A model generated the notes under the pieces. That model had not been told where the DNA came from. It searched no databases and saw only the letters and a program-made list of their open reading frames with translations. From Prorocentrum cordatum (lineage: Eukaryota; Sar; Dinophyceae; Prorocentrales; Prorocentraceae), in the NCBI GenBank assembly GCA_963575745.1, contig CAUYUJ010020682.1, forward strand, positions 333,501-397,500: a stretch of 64,000 nt of DNA. The letters run 5' to 3'. Position 1 is the first letter of the stretch; the number at the start of each line of letters is the position of its first letter. A program made the translations under genes and the position numbers. Shown piece by piece: positions 19,493 through 48,900 of the stretch.

Positions 19493-22400
19493 GTGGCGGT
19501 GGTGGTGGTGGTGCTGCTGGTGCTGGTGACGAGGAGGATGAGGAGGAGGAAGAGGAGGAGGAACAACAGGAGGAGGAGGAGGAGGAGGAGGAGGAGCAGG
19601 AGCAGGAGGTGGACAACAATCGGAGGAGCAAGGGATGAGGAGGAGAAAGTGTATGGATGAGGACGGGGGACGAGGGAAGCCAATATTCGAACTCCCCCCA
19701 TACTCAGAGGCGTCAGCTTAGCGCGCGTCAGCATGCGACCCCCCCTCTCGACGCTGGCGAGGTGGAGGGGCGGGGGGGGGGCGGGCGGGCAAATGGGGGA
19801 GGGGGGACAGCGGCAGTGTCCCATGGGCTTTGGCCGATATTTCCGTCGGAGGGCAGTGCAGCGTGGGCCAATTTTTGCACGAGTTTGGCATGTTCCGAGC
19901 TCGGGGAATTATCCATGAGGACTGGTGCTCGCGGTTCGTCAAGGGAGCCTTCCGCCCCCGGGCCTCGTTCTTTGGACCCACCGTCGTCACTCAGACGCTG
20001 CGCAGAGGTTCGGCACGAACGAAACATGTACGGAAAGAATGGGTACGATATTTAGCAGCAGTTCCAGCCCGTTTTGAACATGATTCGTTGTCCGCGCCGC
20101 CGCGGGCGATGTCCATTTGTGACAGAAGGCGGCCTGCGCAACAGCCGCCGCTGTCGGTTTTGAACAACACTGGCTCAAGCCGTTTCGGCTCAATATTTTT
20201 TTGCCAACGCTTCTTTGCGGCGATTATCTGTCTCTGTGTTCTGCTATGGTGTTTGCACCTGAAGCAAGGATCGGTGGACTGGTGCGTGAGACGAGGCTCT
20301 TCATCAACAACGAGTTTGTGGACGCAAAATCGAAAAAGACGTTCCCCACGGTGGATCCACGCACGGAGGAAGTTATTTGCCACATGCAAGAGGCTGGCAA
20401 GGAAGACGTGGACGCTGCAGTGGAAGCCGCCACTATAGCTTTCAAAACTTGGAAGAAGAGCAACGGCTGCGATCGGCGTGGCATGATGCTGCGGCTTGCG
20501 GACCTCATCGAGAAGCACCGCGTCCAGTTGGCCGAGCTCGAGGCGCTAGACAACGGGAAGCCCCAGCATGTTGCCGACGGCGTGGACATCGGCTTTGTGA
20601 TCGAGTGCTACCGCTACTTTGCCGGCTTTGCGGACAAGGGCGGAGGCAAGGTCATCAACACCACCCGTGACACTGGGAGCACCTTCGCCTTCACGACCCA
20701 CGAACCTGTTGGTGTGTGTGGCATGATCATTCCTTGGAATTTCCCTCTTCTCATGCAGGCCTGGAAGCTGGCCCCAGCCTTGGCAATGGGCTGCACATGC
20801 GTCATGAAGCTTAGTGAGAAGACGCCCCTCTCTGGCATGATGATAATGGCCCTTTTCAAGGAGGCTGGCTTCCCTCCTGGTGTCGTGAACATGCTCAACG
20901 GTCCAGGCATGACAGGAGACATGATTGCGCGCCACCCTGGCATTGCTAAAGTCGCTTTCACTGGTAGCACCGGAACTGGCAGGAAAATCGCAATCGCAGC
21001 TGCGGAGTCAAATCTGAAGAAGGTGAGTTTGGAACTCGGCGGCAAATCCCCCATGATTATCTGCAAGGACGCAGACCTCGACCAGGCAGTCATCGCTTGC
21101 CACGTCGGCCTATTTGTCAACATGGGCCAGTGCTGCTGCGCCTCTAGCCGCATCTACATCCACGAGGATGTGCATGACGCCTTCGTGGCCAAGGTCATGG
21201 AGAAGGCGAAGACCCTCCGCGTGCAAGGTGATACCACCTCAGAGACGGCAGTGCCGATATGCGATCTCGGTCCTCAGGTGGACAAGATCCAATTCGATAA
21301 GATCCTCAGTTACATCGAAACTGGAAAGGCAGAGGGAGCCAAGTGTCTCTTGGGTGGGAACCGCCTTGGTGATAAGGGCTACTACGTCGCACCAACGGTC
21401 TTCTCCGAGGTGAAAGATGACATGACAATTGCTAGGGAGGAGATCTTTGGCCCAGTCATGCAGCTCATGAAGTTCAAGACTCTCGAGGAGGCCATCACCC
21501 GCGCAAACGACACGCACTATGGCCTTGCTGCAGGCCTCTGCACGCGGGACGTCGGTACGGCCCTCGCTACTGCCCATGACTTGAACGCAGGCACTGTGTG
21601 GATCAATTGCTACGATAATTTCGATATGGCATGCCCCTTCGGTGGCTACAAGTCCAGCGGTTGGGGGCGCGACAAGGGCGAGTACGCGCTGGAGAATTAC
21701 ACGGAGGTCAAGTGCGTAATGATGCCCATGGACTCAAAACACCCCTGAGTGCAGTACAGCCACCGGCCGTCCCAGTCGGCCAGCCGCAGGCCGGGTGTCG
21801 CGCGGCGTGCCCCTCACGGAGCAGCGTTCCGTCCGGCTCTGCCACGGTCTGGCTGGTTTGGTGCCTCCTCGCAGGTCGCTGTCCCGGAGTCTTAACTCCA
21901 CCGCTCCCGTTTGTGTCTGATCCAGCTCGAAGCTTGCTGACATGTCAACCTTTTGGACCCGCGATGCTTCAGTGCGCAGCGAGGTGAGGCTTGCTGACAT
22001 GTCGACCTTTTGGACCCGCGATGCCTCAGTGCGCAGCGAGATGTTGACCAGCAACAGACGAGGATCACTCGGATTGTCCAACTTTTTGGCCGGTGGCTTA
22101 CGCCGTACGCGCGTGGCGGGGCGTTGAGCAGATCCGCGCATCCGAGATAGTTGATGCGAGCTCAGGGAAAACATATTTTTCTTCGAGCGATCCCCACCGA
22201 AACCTTCGGCGTGTGTTCCCAACGATTCGCGCGCCTGCTGGAACAATGTGCGCGGGGCCCAGCGGTCTCGGCCAGCGCGGTGGCCAGGCCAGGTCGCAAG
22301 TTGATGTTTTCCGAAAGTCTGACAACCCCAGGGCCCCTGAAAAAAGAAACCGAGACAAGTCCCTGGAGCGACAAACCAGCTCCAAAAACGAGTCTTGCGA

Positions 22401-30969: not shown

Positions 30970-33900
30970 CCATCCCTCTTTCTTAGCATCGCTCGGACGT
31001 GTGCATTTTCCTGGCGAGGACCATCGAGGAACATCATGGATCATTTCGAAAAACACCAAAACAACCTACGACACCGACAAATGAACGGGGAAACGACGTC
31101 CGAGCGATGGCAAGTTTTCTCTTTACAATCTGTTCGTCGAGGAAACAACTGTTGGGGGAGGATGGCACCGCATCGCCCGTACATCACCGATGCGGCGTGA
31201 TCCTCCGACCCCATCCGTTCCAGCCCCATTTGGACGACCTTCTCCTCCTCCTTTCGTCTTCCTTGGCGCCCAGTGCCAGGGCTTGGGCCGGGGTTCCCCC
31301 TGCCGGTGGAGATCGTGCCTTTCTGCCACGAGCACACCGCCAGGCAGATCGAGGCCTGCCCCTGCCCGATGGGATCCACTGTCCTAGGAGGAGTGCCCTC
31401 GTGGAGGAGGACTGCGACGACGACAGGATGAGGAGGAGGAGGAGGAGGAGGAGGAGGAGGAGGAGGAGGAGGAGAAGGAGGAGGCCTGCAGGTTTTGGAC
31501 GCTTTCGTTGCCGCCTGTTGAGGCTCTGGATGCCTCCTTCGAACGCCATAGACCTGCAGAGGCCTCCAAGGACCTTTGAAGAGTCCTGTAGGGATGGAGA
31601 TGGATGTCCGCGAGCGCTTCCATAATCCGAAAGCCTTTATAATGGCGTCGACGACCACAGTGCCGGGTAACTGCTTTGAACAACGCCAGTCGTTCAAAGC
31701 AGTGCCCCGGCACTGCTTTGAACGATGCGGAAATGCGATCAGCAGGAGCCTTCGCCTGTTCCTTCTTCTCTCCTCGTCGCTGTATCCTCTTCCTTGTCCT
31801 CCCTCCTCCCCCGTTCCCTCTCTACCTCGTTCTCTCCGTCTCATGCGCACTCTTCCTCCCCCCTCTCCTCCTCCTCTTCCTGCTTCTCCTCCTCGTCCTC
31901 CTCCTCCTCCGCCTCCTCCTCCTCATTTGTCCTATTTCTCCGTCCTCGTCCTCCTAATTATCCCCCTCCCCCTTCTCCCTCTCCTCCTTCCTCCTCCTCG
32001 TCCTCCTCGTCCTCCTCCTCCTCCTCCTCCTCCTCCTCCTCCTCCTCCTCCCCCTCCTCCTTCCTCCTCCTCCTCCTCCCCCTTTTCCTCTCCCTCCTCC
32101 TCCTCCTCCTCCGCCTCCTCCTCCCCCTTCCCCCTCTTCCTCCTCTGCTAGCACTCCTCTATAATTCCTGTCCACTCCTCCCCTTCACAGATCCTCCTCT
32201 TCGTCGTCATCATCCCTTTCGTCCTCCTTCGCACGCCTCTTAATCCTCAATCGGTTCCCAATCTTCTCGGCTTTCTTGTCATCCGCGTCCTTGGCTCTTG
32301 AAGGAACCTCAGGATTTCTCAGGGCTCTTGTTTGGCACGCGAAGACACACCTCCCAGGAACGCATCATCCTCCTCACCTCCACCCTCCTCCTCCTCATCA
32401 TCCTCCTCCATGCATGTTCGGCTCAAGCCCGCGCCGACGGCAGGTTCCACGGCGGTTGGGCGGGCTCGCGCCCGCCTCCGCGGCCTGCAGTCGGGGCAGA
32501 GATGCGTGCAGGGTGGGATGACAAATCGGAAGAGGAAACACGGGCCGCAGTTGCGGATTCTTCACAGAGCAGCGGTGGCGGTTGGGGAACAAGTGAGGAT
32601 TGGGGCGGCCGCAGTGGCGGATACGGTGGCGGAGGTGACCGCAGTGGCGGCTGGGGCGGCGGAGCTTCTCTTGGCGGATGGGGAGGAAAAGCGCAGGAGG
32701 GCGGCGACGGAAGTGACCGCAGTCGCGGATGGGAGGGCGGCGGATGGGAGCGCGGCGGCGGATGGGGCGGCAATGGATGGGAGGGTTCGGGAATGGAGGG
32801 CGCCCGCTGGTGGGACGAGGAGTGTGGCTGCTGGAATGCATGGGAAAGGGGCCGCTCGAGTGCTTGGGATGGTTCTCCTGCCGCGGGGCCCGCGGCCGCA
32901 ACAGCGGCGGGCAAAGGAGGCCGTCCCCTACTTCCCCCAGAACGCGAAGGGCAAGGCGCAGTTGCGCTTTCTCAGACTGTGGGCCAGGAGCCAGGGCCTA
33001 TTCTCAGGTTGGACTTCTTCGAGAACTTTAGGGCGGACTGGTCTGGGAATTATAAGCAGCGCAACGCGGCCTTGCAGTTTTTCCGAGACGAGTTCGAAGA
33101 CCGAGAAAACCCTTTCGGCAGCCGCGCGCCCGTCTTCGGAGGTACCGCATTTGCGGAGGAAATATCGAAGATCCTTAAGTACCGCGCAAAGGGGAAGGCG
33201 CAGGACAACAGGGATTGGGATTGGGACCACACTGTCAAAGTGCCGTGGTCTTGGCTGGAGATGGTCGCGCAGATGGATGGACCTACAATGCTGCGCGTCG
33301 TGTGCGGCCCTGACAATGACCGCAGTCGCGGGTTGGTCCGCTGCGAGTGCAGCCCGCGCCCTAACAGTCTCGACAACATGAGGCACGCGAAAGGGGTGGA
33401 CAGAGGACAGGCGCAAACAATCTCTCTGCCCCAGTGGGATTTCGCCCTCATCCGCGACGACGGCTCGGGCATTCGCGTCCACCCATCCTGGTCTAGCCCG
33501 AAGTTCAACACGTATGAGGTGGGGCCGCACTGGCACCCCGTGCGCGGCCCGACGGCAGGTCTTGGCAAGAGCGATGGCCACCATGCGAATCCTGGGCGGT
33601 TCGATGCGAACAAGGGGTCGCGCCTGCAACCGCGGTGGTCCGCGCAGCCTTGACACCGCAGTTGCGGAATTCAACCGCAGTGGGCGCAGCCGTGGAACCG
33701 CAGTTGCGGGGACCGATCGCGTGACGCCGCGCTCGTTTGACTCACTATGCGCGCTTTCGGCCGCAGTTGCGGCGCTGCCTTCTAGCGACTTCATATAGCT
33801 TGGCAGCAGTTGCTGCGCTCCCACGACAGACCGCTGTAATTAGGCGCTTCGGGCGCGCATCACCTCCGTTGAAGCACTCGTGACGTTAGCGCGGCCGCAG

Positions 33901-36900
33901 TTGCGGAGACAGGCGAACATATGAATCCGCAGTTGTTCGTCGTCCTCGTCGCCCCTTCCCCGTCGTCCTCGTCGCAGCCCCCCCCCTCCGCCTTTCCTCC
34001 TCGTCGCAGTAGGCGTAGCCCGCCTCCGTCATTAGCCATTTCTTCCGTTGGCCGTAATTCGCCCGCCTCCGTTGGCCGAGTCATTTCCCGTCGTCTTCGT
34101 CGCAGTCCCCTCCGACGGCCGCAGTTGCGGACTTTCTCGATTCCTCCTCCTCCGTTTCTGCCCCGTCACCCTCGTCGCAGTCCCCTTCCTCCTTTCATCC
34201 TCGTCTGAGCTCTTCGCGGCATCCTCTTCCTTCTCGTCCTCTCCATCCTCCTCTTCGCCCTCCTCGTCCTCATCCCCGCCGTCTCCCTCGTTGTCCTTCC
34301 TCGCCCAAGCCGGCCGCAGTTCCCCCGTCGGACGGGGGCCGCGCGCGGCCACGCCCATGGACGCCACGCCGAAAGCCGAGCTCGACCAGCGGTTCGCCGA
34401 GCCGAAGCGGCAACTGCGAGAGAAGTTCGGCGTGACAGGGGCTGCCGCGCAGCCCGCAGTCGCGGCGCCTGAGGGAGACCGCAGTTGCGGAAGCCACGAG
34501 CCTGCGCCGCGCGAGGCCCCCCCTTCGTCGGAGGGCTCGTCGCATAGCTCCCCGCGGGGCTATCGGCCGCCGCCGCCGATCAGCACGCAGTCGATCGAGC
34601 CGTCTGGCACTGGGAGCCGTGAAGAGGCGCAGTTGCGCAGGCCGCCAATGGCTCCCAAGGCAAAATGGCGGGCTCGGGCGCCGACGCCGACGAAGGAGCA
34701 GGACCAACCAGCAGTGACGCGACCCGCCACCGAGACCGCAGTTGCGGGGGTGGCCGGCGAGCCAGGTGCCGTGCGCGGCGCCGCTGCGAGCAGCGCGCCC
34801 TCGGCCGCGCTTCTCCCAGCCGAGTCCAAACGGGGCGTCCAACCCGAAGACGAGGCCGCCTCCCAGGAGAAAGCCGCCGAGACAGTCGCCTCGGCCGAGT
34901 CGCGTCCGAGGGAAAGGCCGCCTCCCACGGAAGGCTCGCCGCTGTCAGAACCGCAGTCGCGGGGTCGCGCGGGATCGCTGTCAGAGCCGCAGTTGCGGGA
35001 AGATGCGGGAGCACCGCGGAAGAAGCCGCGGGCCAGGGGCCCTCCAGGGATAAACTATGTTGGGGAACCCACCAAGTGGAACGAAGGATCCCTTCGCACA
35101 GCAGACGGCCATCGGGTGCCGTCCACCATCGCTCTGGTGTTCAACGTGGTGATCATTTCGGCAACAAAGAAAAGTGTCTTCAATTGCATCCTGCACCAAA
35201 CTGCGGCGGTCATCTTCGTTCTATGGGACCCCGAGATGCTCCGCGCGGGGAACGTCGAAGGCGCTTCCTCCTTGAGGCATGCCGTCGAAGACGCTTGCAA
35301 CTTGAAGAACAACAGCGAGGAGCCTTACTGGACGACGGTTGACCTGTTCAAAGACACAGGCCTGGTGCTCGTGCGCCCGCACATCATCGCAGACACCGCA
35401 GCTGCGGGTCATGTTGTTGGGGCCACCCACGCCGTCACGATCCTCCGCTTTCGCCTGAAGGCTTCCGAAATGAATCCTGAAGCGGTGATCCCTTTTGCCG
35501 TCGTGTCCAGACACGCTGTTTGCGAACCTCTCCAACAGAAGATTACGCAATCAGAACAAGCAGCGTGGCAGGCAGGTTTCTTCAAGGACGCTTTAGCTTC
35601 CATCCACAAAAACCATGTCCGGTTCTTGTGCGGCTTCTTTGACATCCCGCCTGAGCAGTTTCAAGCATTTGGCCGCAGTTGCGGAGCCAGCTACAACTGC
35701 CCGATAGGGGTAGTGTTCAGGGGCGGGCCCGCCCTGTTCGGAGGCTTCAGGAAAGGCGCCCGCGTCGTGCATCCCAATTACGTCGTCCCCATTGGCCCGT
35801 GCGACGTGCGCATTGCGGACTACAACGCGGATTCTGCAGGGAGGCCGTCGAAGAACGATCCCCAGTGGCTCCTTGAGTGGCTGCATCGAACAAGCGACTC
35901 CATCATCTCTCGGCGATGGGTGCACACGAAGGACATGCCCAAGTGGGATTCTGACCCTAACCGCAGTAGCGGAGTCAGAAGACAGCTCGGCTCGGCAGCG
36001 CTGCCCCCCATCGGCAAGGTCATTCAGATGGAGCTCAACGAGACGACCTTCGCCACGCACTGGTACGAGGGCCACCACCAAAACCTCGCCTTCGTCGGGC
36101 ACGGACGCGCGAGTCGGGCGAGCAAGCGGAGGCATGAAGAGGCGCGATCTGCCGCAGTTGCGGACAAGCCGTGAGTGCGCCAAGACCGATGAGCCGCAGT
36201 TGCGGCACAGAGCTCAGTAATTACTACTGCGCGCTTGCTGCCTGCAGTTGCGGGGTAGGAGACCCCTCCTTAGCGAATAAGTGCCGGTTGCCGCGTAGGA
36301 TAGCCCGCAGTTGCGGGGTAGGAGAGCACGCGGTTGCGAACTCGCAGTTCGCAATAAGTGCGCGCGCTGGGTCATCGTCATCGTCGTCGTCCGACGTCGT
36401 CGTCGTCGTCGCTGCCGTCGTCAGCATCGGCAGCATCATCATTGGAATCATAATCATCATCATCGTCATCATCATCATCAGCAACAGCAGCATCAACGTC
36501 GTCATCGTCATCATCATCATCATCATAATCATCATCGTCGTCGTCGGTCGTCGTCGTCGTCGTCCTTTCGAGCTTCGAGGTTGCGGCAGTTGATGCTGGG
36601 AAGGGCCCCCCTCCCCTCCTCGTCCTCCACCAGGCCGCATCCCCCCGCCTTCTCCCTCCTAGCTCTCCTCCCCCTTCCCCTCCGATTCCTCCTCCAGCCT
36701 GCCCCCTCCCTCCTCCAGCCTGCCCCCTCCGAAGCTCTGTTCCGAGATTTTGATTTAAAAGTTGGCCTTCCGTAGTCCGCAGGCACTTCGGCTCAGCAGG
36801 TCGTTGGGCCCCTGAGCGACGGACGTCGTGCCATAGTCCGCAATAGCGGGTGCAATGAGCGACGCCGTCGGCACAGGCAATGCCGCAGTGGCGGACGCGA

Positions 36901-39900
36901 AAGCCGCAGTGGCGGACAAGACAGCCGCAGTTCCAGACGCCACGCAAGGGATCTTTCAGAGGGCCAACGCCTTGAGGTCTCGATTCAGGACAGGGGGCAA
37001 GGTGCGCCTCCCTGTGCTCATGCTCGCCCCGCACACGGGCAACCGAGGCGGGCACTGCCCTCAGCAGGAAAGGGTTCGGGAACTCGCCGTCAAAATCTTC
37101 CTGGCTGGATTCGCGCAAGCCGAAGCTGACCACGAAGGTGTCTGCGTTCAGATGCACCCAGCAGAAGAGCTGGTGCTGAAAAAAAAAGCAGGACCCGACG
37201 CACACAGAGTACAATCGGGAAAAAGCGACCGGGCACCTCGCTGCGTGCTTCGACCGCAGTTGCGGAGCTGACGTTGCGCATGGGACCTGTTCGCACTCCC
37301 ACTTGCGCCTCGTGTTGCGGGCAATCGCCCTGGGAGCCAAGTGGCCCATCCCCCAGGGCATGGAGTTCACGGAGGACGAGCGCGCGAGGCTGCAGCGCGT
37401 GCTCGATAAGGACGGCAATCTCGACATGGCCGCAGTGGCGGCACATGACCCTGTCGCTAAGAACCTCGTGCAGGGGGTATGCTCATGGAAGTGCTGAGCT
37501 GGAAACTCATGGACGAGGAACCCACTGGTGCTTCGCTCATCAGCCAGTCCCTCAATAAAGGGGCCGATTTCGCGTTGCGAACGACTGAACTCACCGCGCT
37601 CCGTGTCCTGTGCGAGACTGTTGACGCGGAGCTGCACGCCGCAGTTGCGGACCACGTTGCCTTTGACAAGGTCAAGCTCTCCGTCACGCACGAACTCGAT
37701 CGAGTCGTTCAGGACCCAGACTTCATTGAGCTGTTTTCGTTCGTTGTTGGGCTCGGGAGTACAAAAGCGCAGTTCATCCCCTTGCTGCTCCAGTTCTGCG
37801 AGGTCTACGTGAACTCCAAGAGAAGGGCCCTTCGGCTCGGGGCCTTCGGGGTAGCCAGCCAGCTCCCCGACGAAGTGCCGTGGGTCAAGATTGCCGTGCT
37901 GATGCGATGCTACAGGAACGCGCCTGCGAGGAAGAGGGGCGTTGACACTCCTGTGTGGTGCCCTGATCCAGAACAATCGTGGAAGGCGAAGGAGTTCCGA
38001 GACTTCCTCATCGACATTAACTCGGCTCTCCGTTTGCACGTGTTCACGCTGAGCAAGGTCATCGACGGCATGGGCCCCAGAAGGCGATCGAGTTCAAGGC
38101 GAACCTGTGCATACTGACCGCGGACGGCTTCATGCAGTGCCTGAAGGACACCACCGTCAAGGAACGAAGTATCCCAGGACATCGTCAGGCGCTCCTCCGC
38201 GCTTGCGCGGAGGCCACGGGGAAGGTGGAGCCGAAGTCCAATCGGGGCGCCCTTGAGACGGCCCTCGGCGAAGTGGCAGTCGGAGGCGGGGGGCCCGATT
38301 GGTTCGATTTCAACGCGTTGCCGCGCCCAGAACCAAATGAGGCCGCAGTGGCGGGGAAGACAAAGGGTTCCGCAGAGGGGCAGGAGTTGATGCCGAGGGT
38401 CATTTCCTTTCACCCCACGACGCAACTACCAACGAACCACCAGCACAGCAGGGACGCGACGGCCATTCCACGCGGATCCTCCCCTTTGCCAATCGCCGAA
38501 TGGAGGCGTTCAGCGGCAGCGAAGGAGCTGGGGCGGGAGCCTGCTTTGGTCAGCGCAGTGTTGCTCTGCCTTTGGGCGCGCCACAGGTCCGCAGTTGCGG
38601 AAGCGCAAGTAGAGGTGTTGCAAGACGCTGATAGAAACAAACGCACCGTCAAGGCAACCGCTGCAAACGACGCACAATGCATCGAGTTGTGGCCGCGCGT
38701 CCCAAAGGCATCCAAGGTACACGCCGCAAGCATGCACCCCGAGAGGGTGGCCGTGCGAGTCTGGGTGAAAGGAGATCCAAATGGAGACACGCCCACGACC
38801 TTCTACTTGCACCCCGAGTTCAAGCCGCCTGCGGACAAGACGCCCGCCGACGTGGCTGACCACGATGCGCGGTTGAGAACATGGAAGTGGGATGCGCAAG
38901 AGACAATGCACGTCTTCTGGGCAGTCAACAGAGTCACGCAACAGGAGGTCCAGCAGAGAAACAGCCGTGATGAAAGCGCAGTTGCGCGCATCAACATGGA
39001 GCTCGAGGAGAAAGAGTTGGCGGTGTGCGTGCCTGGGGCAGGCGGGCTCGTGCTCGCCGTGAATGTCCCTGTGCTGGTGAATACGACGGCCGTGGAGCAA
39101 GGAGAAGAGCTCCTGTGGGAGGCGAGACCCAAAGCCGCACCGAAGAAGAAGGCTGCAGAGGAGACGTGGAAGACGGACGCGGCCAAGAGGGCCAAAGGGA
39201 AGCCTTCGGGCCAGCCCGCCCCGAAGAAATCGAAGAAAGGGTTCGACGAATGCGGGGGGATGTCGCTCTAAGAAGCCGCAGTGGCGGCAGTCAGGGCGGC
39301 TTGCTCGCGTGACCGCAATTGCGGGCAACAGGCCGGAGGGGAGGGCGCAGGCGTGACCGTTGTGGCGGAGCGGTCCTGTAGTTTGCAGTATCGCTGCTTC
39401 TGTTAGGTGTCGCCGCAGTAGCGGATCGCTGACGATCGAGCACGGAGGTTCGAAACAGAACTCCTCCCTCCCTCCTCCCTCTCCTCCCTCGCCCCTCCTC
39501 CACTTCCTCCCTCTCTCCTCCTCCTTTCCCTCCCTCCTCCCAAGTTCGAAGCCGACACTACTCATTCCCTCACTCCCGCCCTCCCTCCCGTCGATGTTCT
39601 CCGCATCCTGCTGCGGCCATCCTGGTGCCGATTCCCCCTCTTGCCAGTTCCCGCGCCGTGTGCACGGGACCTCCTCGGCAGCTCATCCGGCCCCAAGGCC
39701 CTCGAGGGCTCCCGCTCGCAGAATGCTTCAAAGCAGTGCCGCGGCACTGCTTTGAAGCATTCTGCGAGCGGGGGCCCTCGAGGGCCTCGCGGGGATCGCA
39801 GGGGCCGAGGGATTCATTCGTCTCGCCATTTGGCCCAACCGCGCGCGGCCCCACTGCCCGCGCCACCGCCTTGCCCGCAGTTGCGGCTGTGCTCAACGCA

Positions 39901-42900
39901 GTAGCAAACATGCCGACTTCGAGCGAATGGACCCCTGCGTGCGTGGAGAAGGTCTTGTGCATCCGTGGAGGTTGGCTTGCGTCGACCACCCCCATCCCCG
40001 AAAAGGATATCAAGGTGCTCCACGCAGGGCCCCTCGGAGTGAACATGCAAAAGCCTTGGTTGCTCAAGGTGCGCGCGAAAGGTAAACCGACCGCAGGCGC
40101 CTTGAAGGCGCCCAAGGCCTGGGACGCGCTGAAGAAAGAGCTCGCGAAGCAGGGCGGCGCCGCAGTTGCGGACGACGAGAGCGACGGCGACGCGGGGGAC
40201 GAAGCAGATGATCCCATGTCGGCCCTGGTCAGCTCCTCCAGCGACGCGAAGAAGCTGGCCGCGACCCCAGAAGACTGGAACGCGTTCGGCGAGTACTGGC
40301 CTGCTGAGGGGAGAGGCCACGGAGTCGGCCACTGCCACTGTGCACTCCGCACAGATGCCCGCCAAGAGCCGCTTGGAGTATCCTGACGACATGGCCATTC
40401 GACACGTGCGGGTGGCCAGCTTCAAGCGGAGGAAGTTGTGGCTCGACGCTGCAGACCTTGGGTGGCCGATCGAGATGATCGTGGACGACGTGAGCCTCGG
40501 CGGTGTCCCCGACGTCGACGACGGCGACAAGGGCGAGGCCGCAGTGGCGGAAAAAGCATGGGCAACGGCGGCTGACCCTGAAACCCCGCTGGCGAAGCAC
40601 AGGGAGCTCGGCCCCCCCATGGCACAGGGGAGCGGGTCTGGCTTCACCGTCGCTTGGGACTTCAAGGGCGCTTGGGTCGCGACGATCACGCGAGAGTGCG
40701 CCAACAAGGGCAAAACGATCGAGATGGATGTGAAGAAACTTACCAAGGAGAAGTGGCAGTCGGCGCAGTCGTCGAAGGGCCACGACTACGAGTGGGAGGG
40801 CATGACGCAGCAACAGCGCACGCAAGCGGCTCTGGATTACCTCGAGCTCCAAGTCCCCAATCTGTTCGACTGAGGCCCGAAGCCGCATGGCCCGCAGTTG
40901 CGGCGGGGCTACTGAGTGCCCGCAGTTGCGGGGCGGCTGGGCGTGAGTGGAAACGCGGAGGGCGAGGCGGTGTGAGGAGGCAGGCGGAAGGCGAAGGGGC
41001 GCCGTCGCGTTTTTGTCTAGGGTGTTCCACGGGTGCACGCCTAAGTGCGCCAACTTGTGCGGGCGAGCGTGTATCTTAGAGAAGCATTGAGTGAAGCGTC
41101 GAGACCTCGTGCGCGCGATGATTGGGGCTTCCGCGCGGGCGTACTTCAGCAGTAATTAGCTCCTCCCTCCTCCCCTCCTTCTTCGCCCTCCGCGTCGTCT
41201 GCAGTTGCTCCTCCCTCCTCTCCTCCCTCTTCCTAGTTCTGTATCCCGCAGCCGCGTGCCTCGCCCGAGTCGTTCGCCACGCGACCGCGCATGGATGCCC
41301 CCGTGGGGCGGACATGGCATGGCGAGGAGGACGGAACGCATTTCGAGGTGGAGTGGCTCCCTTACGACAGCGGCCGCGCACCGAGGAAAACGGGGTATGG
41401 CACCACTGGGCTCGCCAACATCTTGAGCCGCAGTAGCGGCGATGCTTGCCCCAAGAAGATAAAGGTGCACGCATGTGCGGACTTTCCGTGTCTAGCGAAG
41501 TGGCCCGTGTCGCAGTACGGCTTTGCAGAGCCGCCTCACTTTCATTTGCGGCCGTCTGCTTGGCGACCGGGCGCGCCGCCACCACCCGCAGTTGCGGTTC
41601 CCGCGGCGCCAGCAGAAGCTCCAGGCGGCACCGCAGTTGCGGCTCCCTCGGCTCCTGCGCGCACACCAGCAGCAGCACCAGCAATTCCCGCAGCTCCTGC
41701 GCAAGAAGCACAGGCAGCTCCTGCACCAGCAGCACCCGCAGCACCAAAACCTCCAGCAGCCCCTGCGCCCGAAGCACCCGCAGCAGCAGTCCCTCCAGCC
41801 CCTCCAGCTCAAGTGCACGCAGCACCAGAAACGCCTGCTGCGCACGAGTCCGCAATTTGGGTTGAAGCTTCTGAGGGAGTGGAAGCGGACAAAGACACCA
41901 TTTCCAGCACGCTTGCCACCAGCGCGCCCGCTGCCAGAGAACTGGTCGAAGACGCAGGTCGCATTCTTCCCGTGCCCAGACCCAGAGGCAGCAGCACGAG
42001 CTGCGGCGCCTATTGGCGACGCCTTGCGGCCACGAGTCGCGGCGCCACCCCTGGCGCCAGAGAAGGGTGCACCCGTGGAAGACGCGCCAAAGATCCAGGC
42101 CGCAGTGGCGGCGACGGTGCCTGACCGCGTGATGGCTCTCCTGAGGCAGATTCTGTCCGAGAGTTCCTACATCGGGCATGCAGGTTTCATGCCGTTTGCC
42201 TTGCGGTTCGGGCGTCGACCTTACGTGTGGGAAGGCGAGAACCGCAAGGACCTCCTTGACTGCTACATGCCTTGGGCAAAGGAGAAGTGCACTGAGCCAT
42301 GCGCCGTCGACGGCGTGGCGTGCGTAGTCGCCGCTGCTGAGGATCTGTTCGAGGAATGGACAACGGTGGAGCTCAGGCCCGTGGCTCCCGAGAACCCTCT
42401 CCATGAGGTGCGCCACTGGGTGGCCGCAGTTGCGGTGGGTGGCGTGTGCTCTGAGGGGGCGGACGCGTTGAACAAGTTCTACGGTCCTCTGGGACAATGG
42501 ATCCTAGGGACTGTTTGCGATGGAAACTGCGGCATTGACCTTATGGCGATGATGTTGCAGAAGCCGCAAAATGCCGAGACGCGCAAATGGCTTCGGGAGG
42601 AACTGTGCGATTTCGGGGTGCGCCGCTGGGACGAACCGCGGTTGCACGACGTGCTCGCTGTCGCGCAGGAATTAACCTTGGAGGCGGCGCGGGCGCACCG
42701 CAGTTGCGGGGCCAGCGGCCCTGCTGGATCCATCGTCCTGGACGACTTCCAGGGCGAGGGGGGAACCGGCAGAGGCGCCCAGAGAGGCGAGCGCGCCACG
42801 CCCCGCTCTCATGGCGGCTTTAAAGTGGCAGACGGGCGTGGAGGACGACGGTATATTGCTGGCCATGGCTGAGGCTATGCCCGAGGCGTTGCAGGGGGAG

Positions 42901-45900
42901 CAGATCAGGGCGCGCGCACTGGCCAGCGCACGCCCAAAGCCCGCAGTTGCGGAAGAGAAGCGTCGCGTGTGCCCGCACATGCTCAGAGACCGCGAACTGG
43001 TTTGCAAAGAAATGGAGGCGCACGCGCGCAGTTGTGGTTGGATGGGCGTGGGCGGTTCGCCACGAAATTCAATCGCGTCTTCTTGCGGGCGGTTCGCGTG
43101 GCCGAAGGGCATGGGGCTCGCCCAGCAGAAGAGAACCGTCTCCAAGTGGTTTCAAAACTTGCGCAAACGGGGTGGACATGCCACGGCGAGCGCCCATGGG
43201 CGACGCCGCGCGCCGGGCACCCAAGGGCGCCCGAACAAGGCTCCATGGCTGGAAGCCGCTCTGTACTATTGGTGGTCCCACATGAGGTACTCCGTGGACT
43301 GGAAGGCGGTGGCCAAGCGAACCGCAGTTGCGGAGGAGAGGCCGAAGATGTTGGCCAGGTTCTCCCAATCCCTGCTGGTTACGAAGGCGAAGCAACTCGT
43401 CGCGGACTACTGCGTGGAGACAATGAAGCGGGGAGGCGTACCGAAGGTGCCGCAGTTGCGGCCTCGGTGGTGGGTGAAGTGGCGGCGCTCCTACGGCCTC
43501 AGCATGAAGAAGCCGAACCGCAAGTACAAGGTGCCAAAATGGTTGCTCCAATCCCGTTTTGAGACTATGATCTTGAACGTGGCCAGGGTCCGCGCAGCTG
43601 CGGAGGAGCTTTTGGGGTACGACCCGCACATCCTGAACTGGGACCAGTCGCCCTTTCACCACAACGAGTCTTCGTCGGCCTCCAAGCCGACATTGGCTGT
43701 GAAGGGTGGCATTGTCCCGCTTGTCGAGGCGCATGACGACAGCAGGGCTCGGTGGACAGCGAACCTGACGGTGTCGAGCGACGCGGAGGACATCCGCAGT
43801 TGCGGACCACCGCCAGCGGAGCTCATGTTCAAGGGGGGACCTGTCATCGCTGAGGGCTTGGCCGCACATGCCCGCAGTTGCGGCTATCCGTCCTGGGTGA
43901 GCACGGCGACGTCCGAGAACGGGTCCTACCGCGCAGACGACGTTGTATCATTCTTGCAGCGGCACTTGCGGGCCTGGCCCGCCGACCCGCAGTTGCGGGG
44001 AAAGTGGCGCATCCTCATGGCCGACGACCATAGCCCGCACAAAGCGGACGCTGTGCGGAGACTCGCCTGGCAGCGCGGCTACGTGCTGATCATTCACGGC
44101 GGGGGGGCGACCGCAGTTGCGCAGCCCGTGGACACGGACTTGAACCAGCACGCGAAGCGGCGGCACATTGCCCTCGAGACCAAAGCGCTGGTGCAGAAAA
44201 TGGCGTTGGGGAAGCACGTGCCGCAGTTGCGGCGTTCCGATTGCGCCGACTTGATGGTGACAGTGTTGGACAATGTGCAGTTGCACTTGGACGCCGCGAA
44301 AGGTTTCCTGAAAGTGGGAATTCGAGCGCCCTTCGACAAGTCAGGAGATCTCGAGACTTGCCGAGAGGCGGCGGAACTCTGGAAAGCAGGGGGGCCGCGA
44401 GCAAAAGTGGATGCCGCAGTCGCGGAGGTGAGGGAGGAATGCGGGCAGAAGCGTTTGAAATGGCCCTACAATGACATGCTGCGTCTCATACAGGAATACG
44501 AGAAACACGCCGCCACAGATTCCGCGTTGAATAGGCTCGGCGATGAGGAGGGCGATGACGAGGGCGGGGAGGAGGAGGAGGATGAGGCGCGCGAGGAGCA
44601 CGGGGAGGACGAAGAGCAATGGGAGGCCTCGTGGGCCGAGGCTGTAGCGGAACAGTGCGATGCCGCAGTTGCGGCACCTGGGCCTCAAGGACCCTCGGTA
44701 TCCATGGGCTGCGTGGTCGACGCAGAGGCGGCCGAGCAGGTGGCAGTGGCGACGTCCTTAGCAGAAACGCTCCGCGAGGCGGAAGATATGCTGCGCCGAG
44801 TGGGCATGGAGAAACTAGCGCAGGATTGCCGACAGCAACAACGCAAACAAAAGAAGCGGTTGAGACAGCTGGCGCGGGAGGACAACGAGATCCTACGAGC
44901 GTTGACTGCCCAGCGAGACCACGAAGCCGCAGTGCTAGCGAAAAAGCGGCGCCTGGCGCTGGAAGCGAACGACAGGACGAAGGCGCTGCACGATCTCAAG
45001 AAGCAGATTCGAGAGGCCGGGGCCGCCTTGAGGGCAAAGAAGGAGGCCGCAGTTGCGGTGGAAACGGCTTTGGCTAACAAACACGCCCTAGCGCAGTGGA
45101 ACCCCGAGGAGTTCAACATCAAGAAAAACAGGATGGCAGCTCTGGACCGCCTGGCTCGCGGAAAGGGCGTCCTCTCAGACGAACAGAGGGGGGAGTGGGC
45201 ATGGTTCAAGACGTATTGGGACGAGGAGATGTGCAAGCAGCACAAGGAGCAATGGCCGTTGACGTTTGCTGGGTGGCTGCAACAAGTCGCGGACGACGCG
45301 GCGTCTGGGAACCGTTCGGCGCTGTCGCAGTTCGTGCATTCGGAAACAGTGGGAACCCGGGGAGGGCAAATGGCGCTGGCAATCCCAGCCCTAGCGCGAT
45401 GCAGGCCGCAGTTGCGGACCCACAGGAAGTCCAGCGTGAAGCTGTTTTCCCGAGCGGCGCCCGCGCGGGCAGGAGATGAGGCAAAACCGCAGTTGCGGTC
45501 TTCCAGCTGCTGCGAAAATAATCCTTTCTCAGTCCCTTGCAATCCTCGCCCTCCTTCTGCTTCTCCGCCAGTCCCTTTGTTGTTCTTTCAGTTCCTTTGA
45601 GTCCTCGCCCTCCTTCTGCCACTCCTCGAATCCCCTTTGTTCCCTCCCTCCATCCGAGCCCATGCCCATTCACGATCCATTTCCGTAGCCACCGTGGCTC
45701 GAGGTGGCGCACGCGAAGACCCAGGCATGCGGCCGCCCGCGCGCCCGAGCGCATCCTCTGGGAGTGCGGACCGCGGAATTCGATTTGCCAGAACGGTGTT
45801 CATCCACAGCGCTGAGAAGGAGAAGGGAGGCGAGGACGAGAAAGAGAAGGAGGAGGGAGGCGAGGACGAGAAAGCCGCAGTTGCGGATGACGACGACGAC

Positions 45901-48900
45901 CAGCGGACGCAAGATGGCGACAGCACCGTCGCGTCCTCGGCTGCCCCCGCTGACGAGGCTGAGCCGCGGGGAGGTGCGGGGGCCGCAGTTGCGGCAGCAC
46001 AGGGCCCCTGCATGCCGAGAGCGTTGTCGTTGCGGAGAACCTGGGCTCGGGCGCCCGTCATCCAGACAAGCAATCTGTCGGAAAACCAAAGAGCTCTTGT
46101 CGACGCATGGGAGGAGAGAACGGGGTACGAAGCGGGACGGGTCGGCTTCTACGTGGCCAACTTCGGAGGGACTGCAGCTAGACCCGTGCAACGCGCGGAC
46201 GAGTGGGCGCAGCTCCGCGCGAACCCTGCCCAGATCACCGCCTTGTGCGAGTGCGACGACGAGACCTGCGCGGCACTCAGTGGGGAGCGCGACGCGAGGG
46301 ACAGTGCAGCCGCAGTTGCGGACGATGCGTTTCGGAATCGGACTCACTGCAACTACTTGTGCATCCAGGGCGGCGAGCCATCAGGGACCCTCCTTGTTGG
46401 CATCAGGGACCGCAGTGGCGGCCACATTGAACACGTCGACTTTGCGAGGCTCTTCCACAAGCAGGAGAAGTCCAAAACGAAGAAGAAAAATAACAAGTCC
46501 GCAGTTGCGGATGTTCCTGCGCCAGCGTGGCACAACAAGCACTCCAGGGCGATGGTGGTGCGCGTCCACCTGGACCAGGCCGCGCCCCATCTGGGGGGTT
46601 CCTTCAACGTCATGGCGGTGCACGTCCACCACAGCTTGGCCAACCAAGACTGGGGCGTCACGAAGCTCCATGAGTTCTACAACTGGTTCGTCGCCTACGT
46701 CAGGGATTGGAACGTGAAGGTCTGCATGGGGGACTTCAACATGTGCATGTTCCAGATTGTGTCCTGGTGCCGCAGTTGCGGCCTGACTGTGGACGTCGCC
46801 GCATGGACCCCCTGGAAGACAACAGGCGGCCAGCCCAGGGCAGACAGCATGGCGATTATGTTCATAAGCTGTCCTGGGCAGTACAAGCTTCACCATGGCC
46901 TGAGTGTTCTGCACGACCGCGAGGGCGGGTTCTTGACGACCCAGCATGATCCGTCGTTCCGTGTCTTCGACAACACGAATGGCCCTGGGAAGATGCTTCA
47001 GACTTACGTTCCCAAGGTTGAGGCCGTAGAAGACAAGATGCGCGCCTTCCTGACGCCACCTGGCGAATCCTTGGCCGCAGTTGCGGATTTCGAGGAAAGG
47101 ATGGCGCGCAGGGCACGCGAGGAGTTTGCGCCTCATCCCTTCAGAGTGAAGCAGGGCAAACTCGACGACAAGATATGGCATGGCGCCGTCGGCAGGGCGA
47201 GGCGCGGAGCGCGCTTCCCCCTGGTGGCTTTCACGCGCAATACGTGCCGCAGGTCACCTGAAAGACTCGCCGCGAGGTTGGAAAGGCACGCACAGAAGAG
47301 GGGCAAGGGGGCCAAAGAAGACGGCAGGAAGGGCGGCAAGAAGGGCAGCTACGCACACACCGCAGTTGCGGGGAAGGGCGCCCGACCCCAGATGGAAACC
47401 GCAGCTGCGGGGAGAGACGCTGGGGCTGAGCGAGCAGAGAACACGCCACCGCCGCAAGCTGCCAACGGCGACGATGCGACCCCTTCTTATGCCGCAGTGG
47501 CGGCTGGGTCCTGGGGCGCGAGCGGCAGCGGCGCATGGGAGGCGCGCTGGTGGGGCTGGCGCTCGAGCGGATGGGGTGCTGATGGCGCGCAGTGGTGGCC
47601 CTCTGATGTGGCCGCAGTTGCGGACAATGCCCCTGGGGGCTCGCCTCCTCAGCATGAAGTCGAGTGGGGCTCGAGCGGGCGAGCGGCCGAGCGCCACCCG
47701 TGGACCTGGGAGGCGCAGCGTTGGCGATGGCCGCAGTTGCGGGCAAGTGGAGCATGGCGTTGATAGCCGCAGTTGCGGACAGTGTACGCGGGACGAATCA
47801 TCATCAACACCATCATATCATCAGCCTCTTGTGAAGACGTTCAAAGCAGTGCCGGGGGACTGCTTTGAACGCGTTCAAAGCAGTGCCGGGGGACTGCTTT
47901 CGATCGCCCCCTCGAATCCGTCATGCAGGCTTTCGGATTAGTCATGTGATGCCAGCGCGCTGACCGCAAACAGGAACTCCTTGGAATGTATGGGGCACAG
48001 CACGTGGACCGTAATGCTTGACGCTTCGCGTATCCCCACCAGCGGTCCAACTCGGAGCACATGTGGGGTTCTGTGGACAACCCCAGCAGGGTCAACGTGG
48101 GGCTCGGGCCAGGAGGGGCGTCATCATCATTGCCGACGGCCGCATGGTGCCGGCGATGGCAGACTCCAAGCTCAAACTGCTCTCCAACTACGGGCGGCTC
48201 GCTGGCCTCTGGACGCGCTTTACCACCCCCCCCTGGCCAGAGCCTTGGCAAGCGCACTGCACTCTGCACTGACGACGCCTGCAATCCGATTGAGAACCTG
48301 GCCTCCTGGGTGTCTCCTACCGCAGAGACCCCCTCTGTTGACAACGACGCAAGCACGGAAGCTCCACAGGCGGTGGCAGCGAGGCGCGACCTCCACGCGA
48401 GGTGCTTCAGCGCGCAGTGCGACCTTCCCCTTGCTGCCGAACCGTGTTGGACGCTATCGATTTACGCCTGGCAGGTGCACTGGAGGCCGTTTTCAACGAT
48501 CAAGCCTTTGCGACAGTCCTCTTCCTCGTCGCTTGACTACGCCCCCACAAGTACTACACGGAAGGCACCCCCTCCGACCCTGGGCAGTTCGACAGGAAGT
48601 TTTGGAGCCACCTGGGGTACCTTTACGACGTGGATTCGGGCCTGGACGCTGGGAATCGGGTGCGCAACCTGACATGGGCCTCCATCGTCTGCGCAGCTGG
48701 CCTAGGCACGGACTAGGATGATGATGCACGCGCGATCGAGGCGGGCGAGGTTTTCCCAATCCCCGTTGTTCAGGGGCGTGCGGGGCGTAGGCCCAAAAAC
48801 AAGAACCGCTGTGTCCCCCGGGACCTTCTGCACCACTTCCCCAGCGCCTGGTCGTGCGGGACCCGGACCTGCCCCCGCAACCTGGTGTACCCCGGCCTGG

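Follow-up and report, generated by a model that had tools for sequence, protein, structure and literature searches.

A hairpin repeated along the sense strand of a giant mariner-like transposon is a probable RNA tag

The 12-base word CCGCAGTTGCGG, which recurs on one strand of the 64,000-base stretch of dinoflagellate DNA analysed here (the window), is a hairpin, NNGC-AGTN-GCNN, that selection has kept about 70 times in the window's giant transposon. We consider it probable, at roughly 0.6, that this tag is a sense-strand RNA hairpin on a mariner-like transposon and is bound by a trans-acting factor. The observations behind this reading are the directionality of the tag, the covariation of its stem, its constraint in codons and in less conserved stretches, its turnover by point mutation and the different tag of a relative; from these we infer an RNA step and a reader of the tag.

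Forty-five exact copies of CCGCAGTTGCGG lie on the + strand of the window (32545-47778) and 0 on the - strand, confirming and strengthening the original prediction, which had reported about 45 copies in one orientation and none elsewhere. Shuffled sequences hold a mean of 0.01 copies and a maximum of 1 in 100 shuffles. With at most one mismatch, 71 copies are found on the + strand and 5 on the - strand; one near copy on the + strand lies at 187, outside the block, and the near copies inside it, put earlier at about 30, are real and number 25. The commonest are CCGCAGTGGCGG (11), CCGCAGTCGCGG (5) and CCGCAGTAGCGG (3), and because the near copies are mostly of one kind, the unit is CCGC-AGTN-GCGG, which occurs in the element 64 times forward and 0 times in reverse. 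Perfect 4-bp stems with an AGTN loop number 69 on the + strand of the element and 1 on the - strand, compared to 2 on each strand in the remaining 47,686 bases of the window. In that remainder, the most conspicuous of the other recurrent hairpin loops belong to a 427-bp tandem repeat and to AT repeats. The word had been described as a strand-biased inverted repeat; the inverted repeat stands, and the fixed AGT loop has to be added to the unit, since it is this loop that makes the word directional. Taking the GCAGTNGC core plus two outer pairs, with G-U allowed, the array comprises 70 sense hairpins (32545..47778, + strand) at a mean gap of 221 nt, the first starting 920 nt from the left end of the element and the last ending 160 nt from its right end. 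As was claimed, they occupy all three frames and the spacers.

The carrier is a Tc1/mariner-like transposon of 16,314 bp on the + strand (31625..47938), defined by its ends and by flanking TA target duplications, read from the flanks, at 31623..31624 and 47939..47940. Its 11-bp terminal inverted repeats, a feature of IS630-Tc1-mariner (ITm) transposons, are ATCCGAAAGCC on the left (31625..31635, + strand) and, on the right (47928..47938, - strand), a copy that reads GGCTTTCGGAT on the + strand. Two homologous copies, C226 (17,277 bp) and C15 (17,043 bp), have matching ends and similar inverted repeats. The TA duplication typical of ITm elements flanks both ends of the window copy and of C15; C84 and C4 have it on the left, where C226 has TC instead, and C226 has it on the right. 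Homology to C84 extends from 31619 to 37343, up to the end of that copy's contig, and the right end of C4 was searched for and not found. Subterminal palindromes of the TTCAAAGCAGT...ACTGCTTTGAA type at the left (31646..31724) have counterparts close to the left end in C84, C226 and C4 and diverged ones in C15, and those at the right (47835..47905) are also present at the right end of C226. The central palindrome (39722..39758), again of this type, has longer arms, and C226 has a shorter equivalent at the corresponding place. These three palindrome sites hinted at two 8-kb tandem units, an idea that was dropped because the 11-bp ends and the TA duplications delimit one element.

The transposase ORF (42811..45600, + strand), with 13 hairpins inside, contains a DDE domain at about residues 240-530. 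In an alignment of 36 sequences, D405 and D441 are invariant and D278 is nearly so, and these three residues would form the catalytic triad; the gap of 35 residues between D405 and D441 agrees with mariner-like DDE/DDD spacing. The modelled protein adopts the mariner-type DDE catalytic fold, with Mos1, SETMAR and Sleeping Beauty as the best matches among solved structures, and its N-terminal region, where a paired helix-turn-helix DNA-binding domain would be expected in an ITm transposase, is helical in the model and covered by few fold matches. Since the N-terminal part, compared with P0001, sits in a separate upstream frame (41523-42872), the window copy is probably decayed. A megablast search of plasmids with the ORF gave no match, and profile searches with the alignment found no relative in viral contigs and one in genome contigs. 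A second conserved gene (45637..47763, + strand, 11 hairpins) shows third-position bias against C226 and C15 and, by eye, a GDFN motif; its product is possibly endonuclease/exonuclease/phosphatase-like, but it matched no Pfam model under the thresholds applied, and its structure model was unusable (pLDDT 30). The third conserved gene region (37479..39271, + strand) consists of ORFs 37479-38117 and 38132-39271, has codon periodicity against C226, and its second ORF has 7 homologs. Sequence searches of the PDB with both non-transposase genes gave no match. No Pfam model exceeded the cut-off in the scanned element ORFs; thus no RNA-binding domain was recognised there, nor was any capsid gene.

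The tag keeps its orientation in other copies. The core is found forward and in reverse 74 and 2 times in the window, 31 and 1 times in C84, 71 and 2 times in C226, and 55 and 0 times in C15, and the full unit occurs 28, 58, 42 and 5 times forward in C84, C226, C15 and C4, respectively, and never in reverse. Tags and genes share the same sense in each of the four copies for which both strands were counted, and this is the strand link that the original prediction had named as supporting evidence. AGTN accounts for 64 of the 72 CCGC-N4-GCGG sequences of the window, 58 of 74 in C226, 42 of 52 in C15, 28 of 30 in C84 and 5 of 15 in C4, where just 7 tags were seen across the 5.9 kb examined. The three full-length copies, 16-17 kb long, carry 53-70 tags each on their sense strand, with spacing more regular than random in all three (p = 0.002-0.004, the copies being related), and the spacing in C84 shows no excess regularity (p = 0.27).

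Stem pairing is maintained by compensatory change. At core sites the outer pair is Watson-Crick in 71 of 74, 65 of 72 and 52 of 55 cases in three divergent copies, a covariation reached by none of 10,000 shuffles in any of them, and the second pair also covaries (p = 0.0004, <0.0001 and 0.035). In hairpins that are otherwise intact, CG forms the outer pair 200 times, GC 18 times, and TA and TG twice each; unpaired combinations are CC (6), CA (1) and GG (1). Five of the 69 AGTN hairpins on the + strand of the element have other, compensated stems. GCGCAGTTGCGC (32956..32967, + strand) recurs at 34627 and 38976, the last of which retains GCGC...GCGC in C226 and C15; CAGCAGTTGCTG (33804..33815, + strand) stands where C84, C226 and C15 have CCGC...GCGG; and GTGCAGTTGCAC (44275..44286, + strand) faces a mismatched CTGC...GCAC in C226 and is lost in C15. 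The next pair outward is Watson-Crick or G-U at 91 of 231 sites (72 expected), and this weak excess, with none at the following two positions, led us to reject a longer stem in the window lineage.

These data bear on whether the tag is read as double- or single-stranded nucleic acid. Internal double-stranded sites, by which the transposase or a chromatin protein would compact or bridge the 16-kb element, could explain the fairly even spacing and the occupation of both genes and spacers, and a giant element presumably has to bring its distant ends together. However, independent dimer half-sites do not need stem covariation, and both loop and array are directional; moreover, the subterminal palindromes, the expected targets of a transposase, have just GCAGT in common with the tag, and in C15 they have changed to ACAGT while the tags are still GCAGT. 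We therefore regard double-stranded sites as unlikely. The binding site for a block protein proposed earlier survives mainly as one read from a single strand, since the stem pairs covary and the loop direction is fixed. A hairpin of single-stranded DNA formed while the element replicates or transposes would fit too, because any single strand accounts for covariation plus direction, but cut-and-paste movement of Tc1/mariner elements involves no long single-stranded intermediate, which makes this quite improbable. Two results count against the RNA reading. The ratio of G-U to A-C stem variants is only 10:4 (p = 0.09), and single-stranded DNA tolerates G-T pairs too. In folding predictions (n = 64), the mean hairpin probability with 100-nt flanks is 0.34 for sense RNA, 0.29 with shuffled flanks and 0.47 for antisense RNA, and with 40-nt flanks it is 0.43, 0.43 and 0.54, respectively; antisense RNA being favoured, the flanks are not tuned for exposing the hairpin in sense RNA.

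Tag copies are gained and lost by point substitution. Of 21 sites with the tag in one copy only and flanks at least 65% identical, a filter that left out such sites where the alignment was poor or gapped, none is a clean insertion with a gap of at least 8 bases and 20 are gap-free substitutions, 19 of which differ by 1-4 bases. A tiny mobile or templated 12-bp insertion, one of the three ideas first put forward, would keep translation in frame, and none of the three + frames contains a stop, but this result refutes it for the copies compared, and by eye most motif sites lie opposite ungapped residues in the transposase alignment. It is also very improbable that the hairpins are a mutational artefact, in which template switching corrects imperfect palindromes into perfect hairpins without selection: such switching can yield compensated stems, but it leaves the fixed AGT loop, single orientation, restriction to the element and frozen silent sites unexplained.

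The hairpin is constrained both within codons and where conservation is lower. Eleven of its 12 columns are 91-98% identical to C226, compared to 72% for the flanks, and the free loop base is conserved no more than the flanks. Where flanks are at least 55% identical, C226 retains 35 of the 48 window hairpins; the corresponding figure is 8.2% for a control of GC-rich 12-mers, which requires exact identity at 11 columns whereas the hairpin count also accepts five compensated stems. Within codons, the silent base of the hairpin GCA is frozen in 16 of 16 and 10 of 10 cases, and elsewhere in 17 of 27 and 3 of 22. Of 36 hairpins that lie beyond the best-conserved coding stretches, 23 are kept amid flanks just 53% identical. 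An effect of codons, peptides or composition has in its favour the GC-richness of the coding DNA, but it is refuted by the shuffle expectation, the use of three frames plus spacers and the frozen silent third bases, so that, as argued originally, selection on one peptide is insufficient, and the composition model that might have overturned the prediction does not predict the 45 copies.

The sense bias extends to homologs. In 120 homologous transposases, sense tag peptides are enriched 7-32-fold (812 v 119, 261 v 8.2 and 75 v 3.0) and antisense ones 0.9-3.6-fold (67 v 74, 6 v 1.7 and 8 v 8.3). At least four tag peptides are present in 111 of the 120 and fewer in nine, and P0011, P0053 and P0080 have 1, 1 and 3; the tag is thus not indispensable to the whole family. 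A distant relative, L018, carries a different tag, stem-CAATNA-stem, again in the sense direction: CAATNA loops closed by at least 3 pairs number 23 sense and 2 antisense, 18 of the 23 have at least 5 pairs (maximum 7), and among 6-base loops on 4-bp stems CAATNA is the sole one that recurs (17 hairpins). Pattern scans of IMG/VR returned 87 loci, and paired-loop density revealed no dispersed array in the fetched stretches; the densest two, L027 and L030, proved to be a single contig with a 24-base tandem repeat.

An RNA-level signal is the best supported of the three ideas in the original prediction, whose interpretation as a whole is partly supported. The hairpin would act in RNA, with tags about 220-290 nt apart on a long sense transcript, and a trans-acting protein would bind it by reading its CARUNR loop atop a stem closed by G-C. 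We prefer a reader encoded by the element itself, which would mark the element's own transcripts, coding and spacer parts alike, as self and might thereby serve their protection, processing, export or the cis-acting recruitment of transposase. It is rather unlikely that the reader belongs instead to a host RNA pathway for export, decay or silencing. Dinoflagellates are said to rely predominantly on post-transcriptional control (PMC12787238), and the scanned element ORFs are without a known RNA-binding domain, which would suit a host reader, but such hairpins are almost absent from the rest of the window, L018 has a different loop, and a hairpin kept by selection in the element should benefit the element. 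With an element-encoded reader, a more tentative and somewhat doubtful extension is that a DNA transposon superfamily barcodes its own RNA: lineage-specific hairpins (CAGUNG or CAAUNA) would recur at intervals of ~220-290 nt throughout the sense transcript, and an element protein that co-evolves with them, possibly the transposase, would read them, allowing an element to recognise its own transcripts and to act in cis.

The element resembles ITm transposons in its TA target duplications, inverted ends and DDE transposase, but it differs in its size of 16-17 kb, several genes, subterminal palindromes and 53-70 sense tags per full-length copy. Known members usually span 1-5 kb, and we know of none with such a hairpin array. 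To our knowledge, selection on nucleic-acid structure that overrides silent codon choice at some 50-70 sites is likewise no known property of DNA transposons, and whole-length RNA tagging is an arrangement familiar from RNA viruses but, as far as we know, not from DNA transposons. In the dispersed packaging signals of viruses, a loop motif sits on a paired stem that varies, as here. Those of single-stranded RNA viruses such as parechovirus comprise many short sense-strand RNA sites (PMC5431903). The tag shares with them many sense hairpins, a conserved loop and a covarying stem; theirs contact a capsid, whereas the carrier here is a DNA transposon in which no capsid gene was recognised. AGUN in the window lineage is an AGNN tetraloop as in the hairpins of RNase III (Rnt1p), CAATNA of L018 is not, and AGNN cleavage uses a stem of over about 10 bp, whereas the tag stem has only 4-5 bp, the next outward pair being neither Watson-Crick nor G-U at 140 of 231 sites, with no excess beyond. 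Iron-responsive elements also have a short stem and a loop starting C-A-G-U, but their loop is CAGUGN and that of the tag CAGUNG. The last G of the tag loop is nearly fixed, a G directly follows AGT at only 27 of 231 core sites, and L018 has CAATNA. An Rfam scan of the window at the gathering threshold gave 0 matches. Phage stoperators, Chi/KOPS, uptake sequences and HIP1 are likewise dense, short, mostly fixed words, of which stoperators, Chi and KOPS are oriented, but they are read as double-stranded DNA, and we know of no stem covariation with a free loop position in them. HIV-type integrase binds stem-loops of genomic RNA, and its likeness to the transposase is one of fold match only. Among the literature matches listed, the one for the exact word concerns Bdellovibrio, and those for dinoflagellate palindromes, mariner/Tc1 elements, and RNA hairpins with transposons include nothing comparable.

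The finding points to an unrecognised RNA-recognition system, with the tag as a sequence handle toward its protein; a reader encoded by the element would account for the ability of giant autonomous transposons to distinguish their own transcripts from others. The tag also lets the element family be recognised in dinoflagellate and ocean data. In the whole genome (4.13 Gb), the count of both orientations proposed earlier gave 9,622 + 10,869 exact copies against 457 + 462 of the word read backwards, and among 100 genome matches listed, 66 fall by hand count into six clusters, each of a single orientation.

The word CCGCAGTTGCGG occurs 45 times in exact form on the + strand of the window, from 32545 to 47778, and not once on the − strand, against an expectation of 0.01 in the shuffled window (61.6% G+C), which bears out the original observation of a dense 12-bp word in one orientation. 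Its variants define the unit CCGC-AGTN-GCGG, a small hairpin or tag whose eighth base is T in 45, G in 11, C in 5, and A in 3; a search for the unit in reverse sense within the element found none. AGTN is the loop of 64 of the 72 CCGC-N4-GCGG sequences in the element. On any perfect 4-bp stem, this loop is found 69 times on the + strand and once on the − strand of the element, and twice on each strand of the window outside it; stems are altered yet still complementary in five of the 69. The motif search covered 4,128,499,153 bases in 21,875 contigs, and the Prorocentrum cordatum CCMP1329 genome is described as 4.15 Gb in 22,724 scaffolds with 59.7% G+C (PMC10666404).

The block that holds the words is one transposon of 16,314 bp, with its left end, ATCCGAAAGCC, at 31625 and its right end, GGCTTTCGGAT, ending at 47938, each having a TA on the outer side. 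Palindromes (TTCAAAGCAGT.../...ACTGCTTTGAA) are located just inside each end and in the middle of the element, where the one of subterminal type (39722-39758) has a counterpart at 11856 in the C226 copy whose arms are much shorter. The element has the TA duplication, inverted ends, putative catalytic residues, and, in a predicted model, fold of Tc1/mariner transposons. The transposase ORF at 42.8 kb (42811..45600, +) has 135 homologs at E ≤ 0.001 among 7,996 scored candidates, 120 of them listed, and the best matches of its predicted structure (mean pLDDT 74, pTM 0.46) are the catalytic domains of Mos1, SETMAR, and Sleeping Beauty; its N-terminal region, where a DNA-binding domain would be expected, is helical and covered by few of the fold matches. 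Third-position bias relative to C226 shows that this gene, others upstream of it, and one downstream were protein-coding on the + strand. The window copy is probably decayed because its transposase frame is interrupted relative to the homologous protein P0001. At 45683, the start of the 45.6-kb gene, a 21-base stretch resembles the dinoflagellate spliced leader with 4 mismatches by eye, perhaps by chance, since the window holds 4 matches at ≤6 mismatches. Further copies were retrieved through motif clusters, a selection biased to tag-rich ones. C84 is 84-86% identical to the window over 31619-37343, where its contig stops; C226 (17,277 bp) is 69-77% identical over the main blastn pieces, and C15 (17,043 bp) 64-75%. 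C4, compared in its left part (from C4:159067), has a good left end and only 7 tags in 5.9 kb; it may be in decay, shortened, or simply a copy with few tags.

Comparison of these copies shows selection acting on the structure of the hairpin. For 48 window hairpins with flank identity of at least 55% to C226, 11 of the 12 columns are 91-98% identical and the flanks 72%; base eight, where the loop is free to vary, is at the level of the flanks, 72%. The corresponding values for 27 hairpins compared with C15 are 78-93% for the eleven columns, 52% for the eighth base, and 67% for the flanks. Hairpins are kept in 35/48 cases in C226 and 14/27 in C15, compared to 8.2% and 1.8% for GC-rich 12-mer controls, the control being scored by exact identity over 11 columns and a hairpin with a compensated stem also being counted as kept. 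With badly aligned hairpins included, 46/69 are kept in C226 and 25/69 in C15. Outside the best-conserved coding stretches, 23/36 are kept at a flank identity of only 53%, and inside them 23/33 at 73%. In four ORFs, codons of the frame GCA GTN GCG with the first two bases kept were examined for their third base. That of hairpin GCA is kept in 16/16 (C226) and 10/10 (C15), compared to 17/27 and 3/22 for the other GCA codons of these genes; the values are 14/14 and 10/13 for hairpin GCG (elsewhere 51/68 and 27/50), and 9/14 and 5/12 for hairpin GTN (elsewhere 55/85 and 36/66).

The stems also covary. When sites were picked by the core GCAGTNGC alone and their outer pairs then scored, Watson-Crick pairs were found in 71/74 (window), 65/72 (C226), and 52/55 (C15), counts reached in 0/10,000 shuffles. 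With the rest of the hairpin intact, the outer pair in six sequences is CG 200, GC 18, TA 2, and TG 2, with eight mismatches (CC 6, CA 1, GG 1), the events being fewer than these cells because some sites are orthologous.

Well-aligned stretches speak against the suggestion of a tiny mobile or templated insertion, since sites present in one copy only differ almost always by substitution and never by a clean gap. The comparison took in 21 such sites whose flanks reach 65% identity or more, and excluded one-sided sites where the alignment was poor or broken by gaps. None shows a gap of ≥8 bases; gap-free substitution accounts for 20, with 1 to 4 changes in 19 of these, and the remaining site has a 6-base gap. 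Hairpin positions shift between copies, and their number and spacing are maintained. The coefficients of variation of the gaps in the three full-length copies, which are related to each other, are 0.73, 0.72, and 0.66 (p=0.003, 0.004, and 0.002), and regularity in the partial C84 is non-significant (p=0.27). In full-length copies, the array begins 332-1632 nt in from the left end and stops 160-281 nt short of the right end.

Tags in genes leave peptides, namely AVA, RS[RCGS]G, and PQ[LSW]R in sense, and ATA, R[NHDY]CG, and P[PLR]LR in antisense. In the 120 listed transposase homologs, with identity down to ~31%, the sense peptides were observed 812, 261, and 75 times (119, 8.2, and 3.0 expected) and the antisense ones 67, 6, and 8 times (74, 1.7, and 8.3 expected); same-composition control peptides reached 2.2-2.9-fold. 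At least four tag peptides are present in 111 homologs and fewer in nine. In a 36-sequence alignment, 286 tag peptides begin at 108 different columns. Several homologs, including P0011 and P0053 (one tag peptide each) and P0080, have few and no obvious replacement; these may either have lost the tag or use another. The sole relative compared at the DNA level, NHDG01000044.1 (L018; transposase 36% identical), has only 2 window-type hairpins and a tag of its own, stem-CAATNA-stem, found with at least 3 pairs 23 times in sense and twice in antisense. Of the sense tags, 18 have at least 5 pairs, and the stems covary. Both tags are built alike, as G-CARTNR-C on a short stem. A right-end-like sequence lies at 6389-6399 of L018 (one mismatch allowed), and if this end is real, four tags would be beyond it. 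The record, which carries the same transposase family, is labelled a planctomycete MAG (Planctomycetia bacterium TMED53); it is probably a eukaryotic contig assigned to the wrong bin. A density search for dispersed tag arrays in 87 IMG/VR loci from motif patterns gave 0/87.

The fixed direction, the covarying stems, and the identity of the loop suggest recognition of one strand in hairpin form, and the tags' sharing the sense of the genes and occurring in spacers points to a tag within a long transcript. On these two grounds we favour an RNA hairpin that would be bound by a trans-acting protein, set against rivals in which the tags are internal binding sites in double-stranded DNA or act as single-stranded DNA. 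Two results count against RNA: stem variants are G-U versus A-C by only 10 to 4 (p=0.09), and folding in context prefers the antisense hairpin, with 0.47 antisense, 0.34 sense, and 0.29 in shuffled flanks for 100-nt flanks, and 0.54, 0.43, and 0.43 for 40-nt flanks. The reader of the RNA tag would most probably be encoded by the element itself; its scanned ORFs gave no recognised RNA-binding domain, which weakens the RNA-tag reading, and in a further rival the RNA mark is read by the host. An iron-responsive element is excluded by the loop order, and an RNase III substrate by the too short stem. In layout the tag resembles the packaging signals that parechovirus and other RNA viruses carry in dispersed form (PMC5431903), but the carrier here is a DNA transposon. 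An earlier description of the tag was not among the matches listed from a restricted literature collection.

Elsewhere in the window, ORFs resembling a reverse transcriptase and, after it, a tyrosine recombinase, a DIRS-type order read by eye, occupy 11279-14905 (+); a Pfam scan of two ORFs there lent this no support. An aldehyde dehydrogenase ORF runs without interruption at 20201-21748 (+; Pfam Aldedh, E 6e-172), and a tandem repeat of 427-base period at 6806-7671 bears small hairpins with CAAGA loops.
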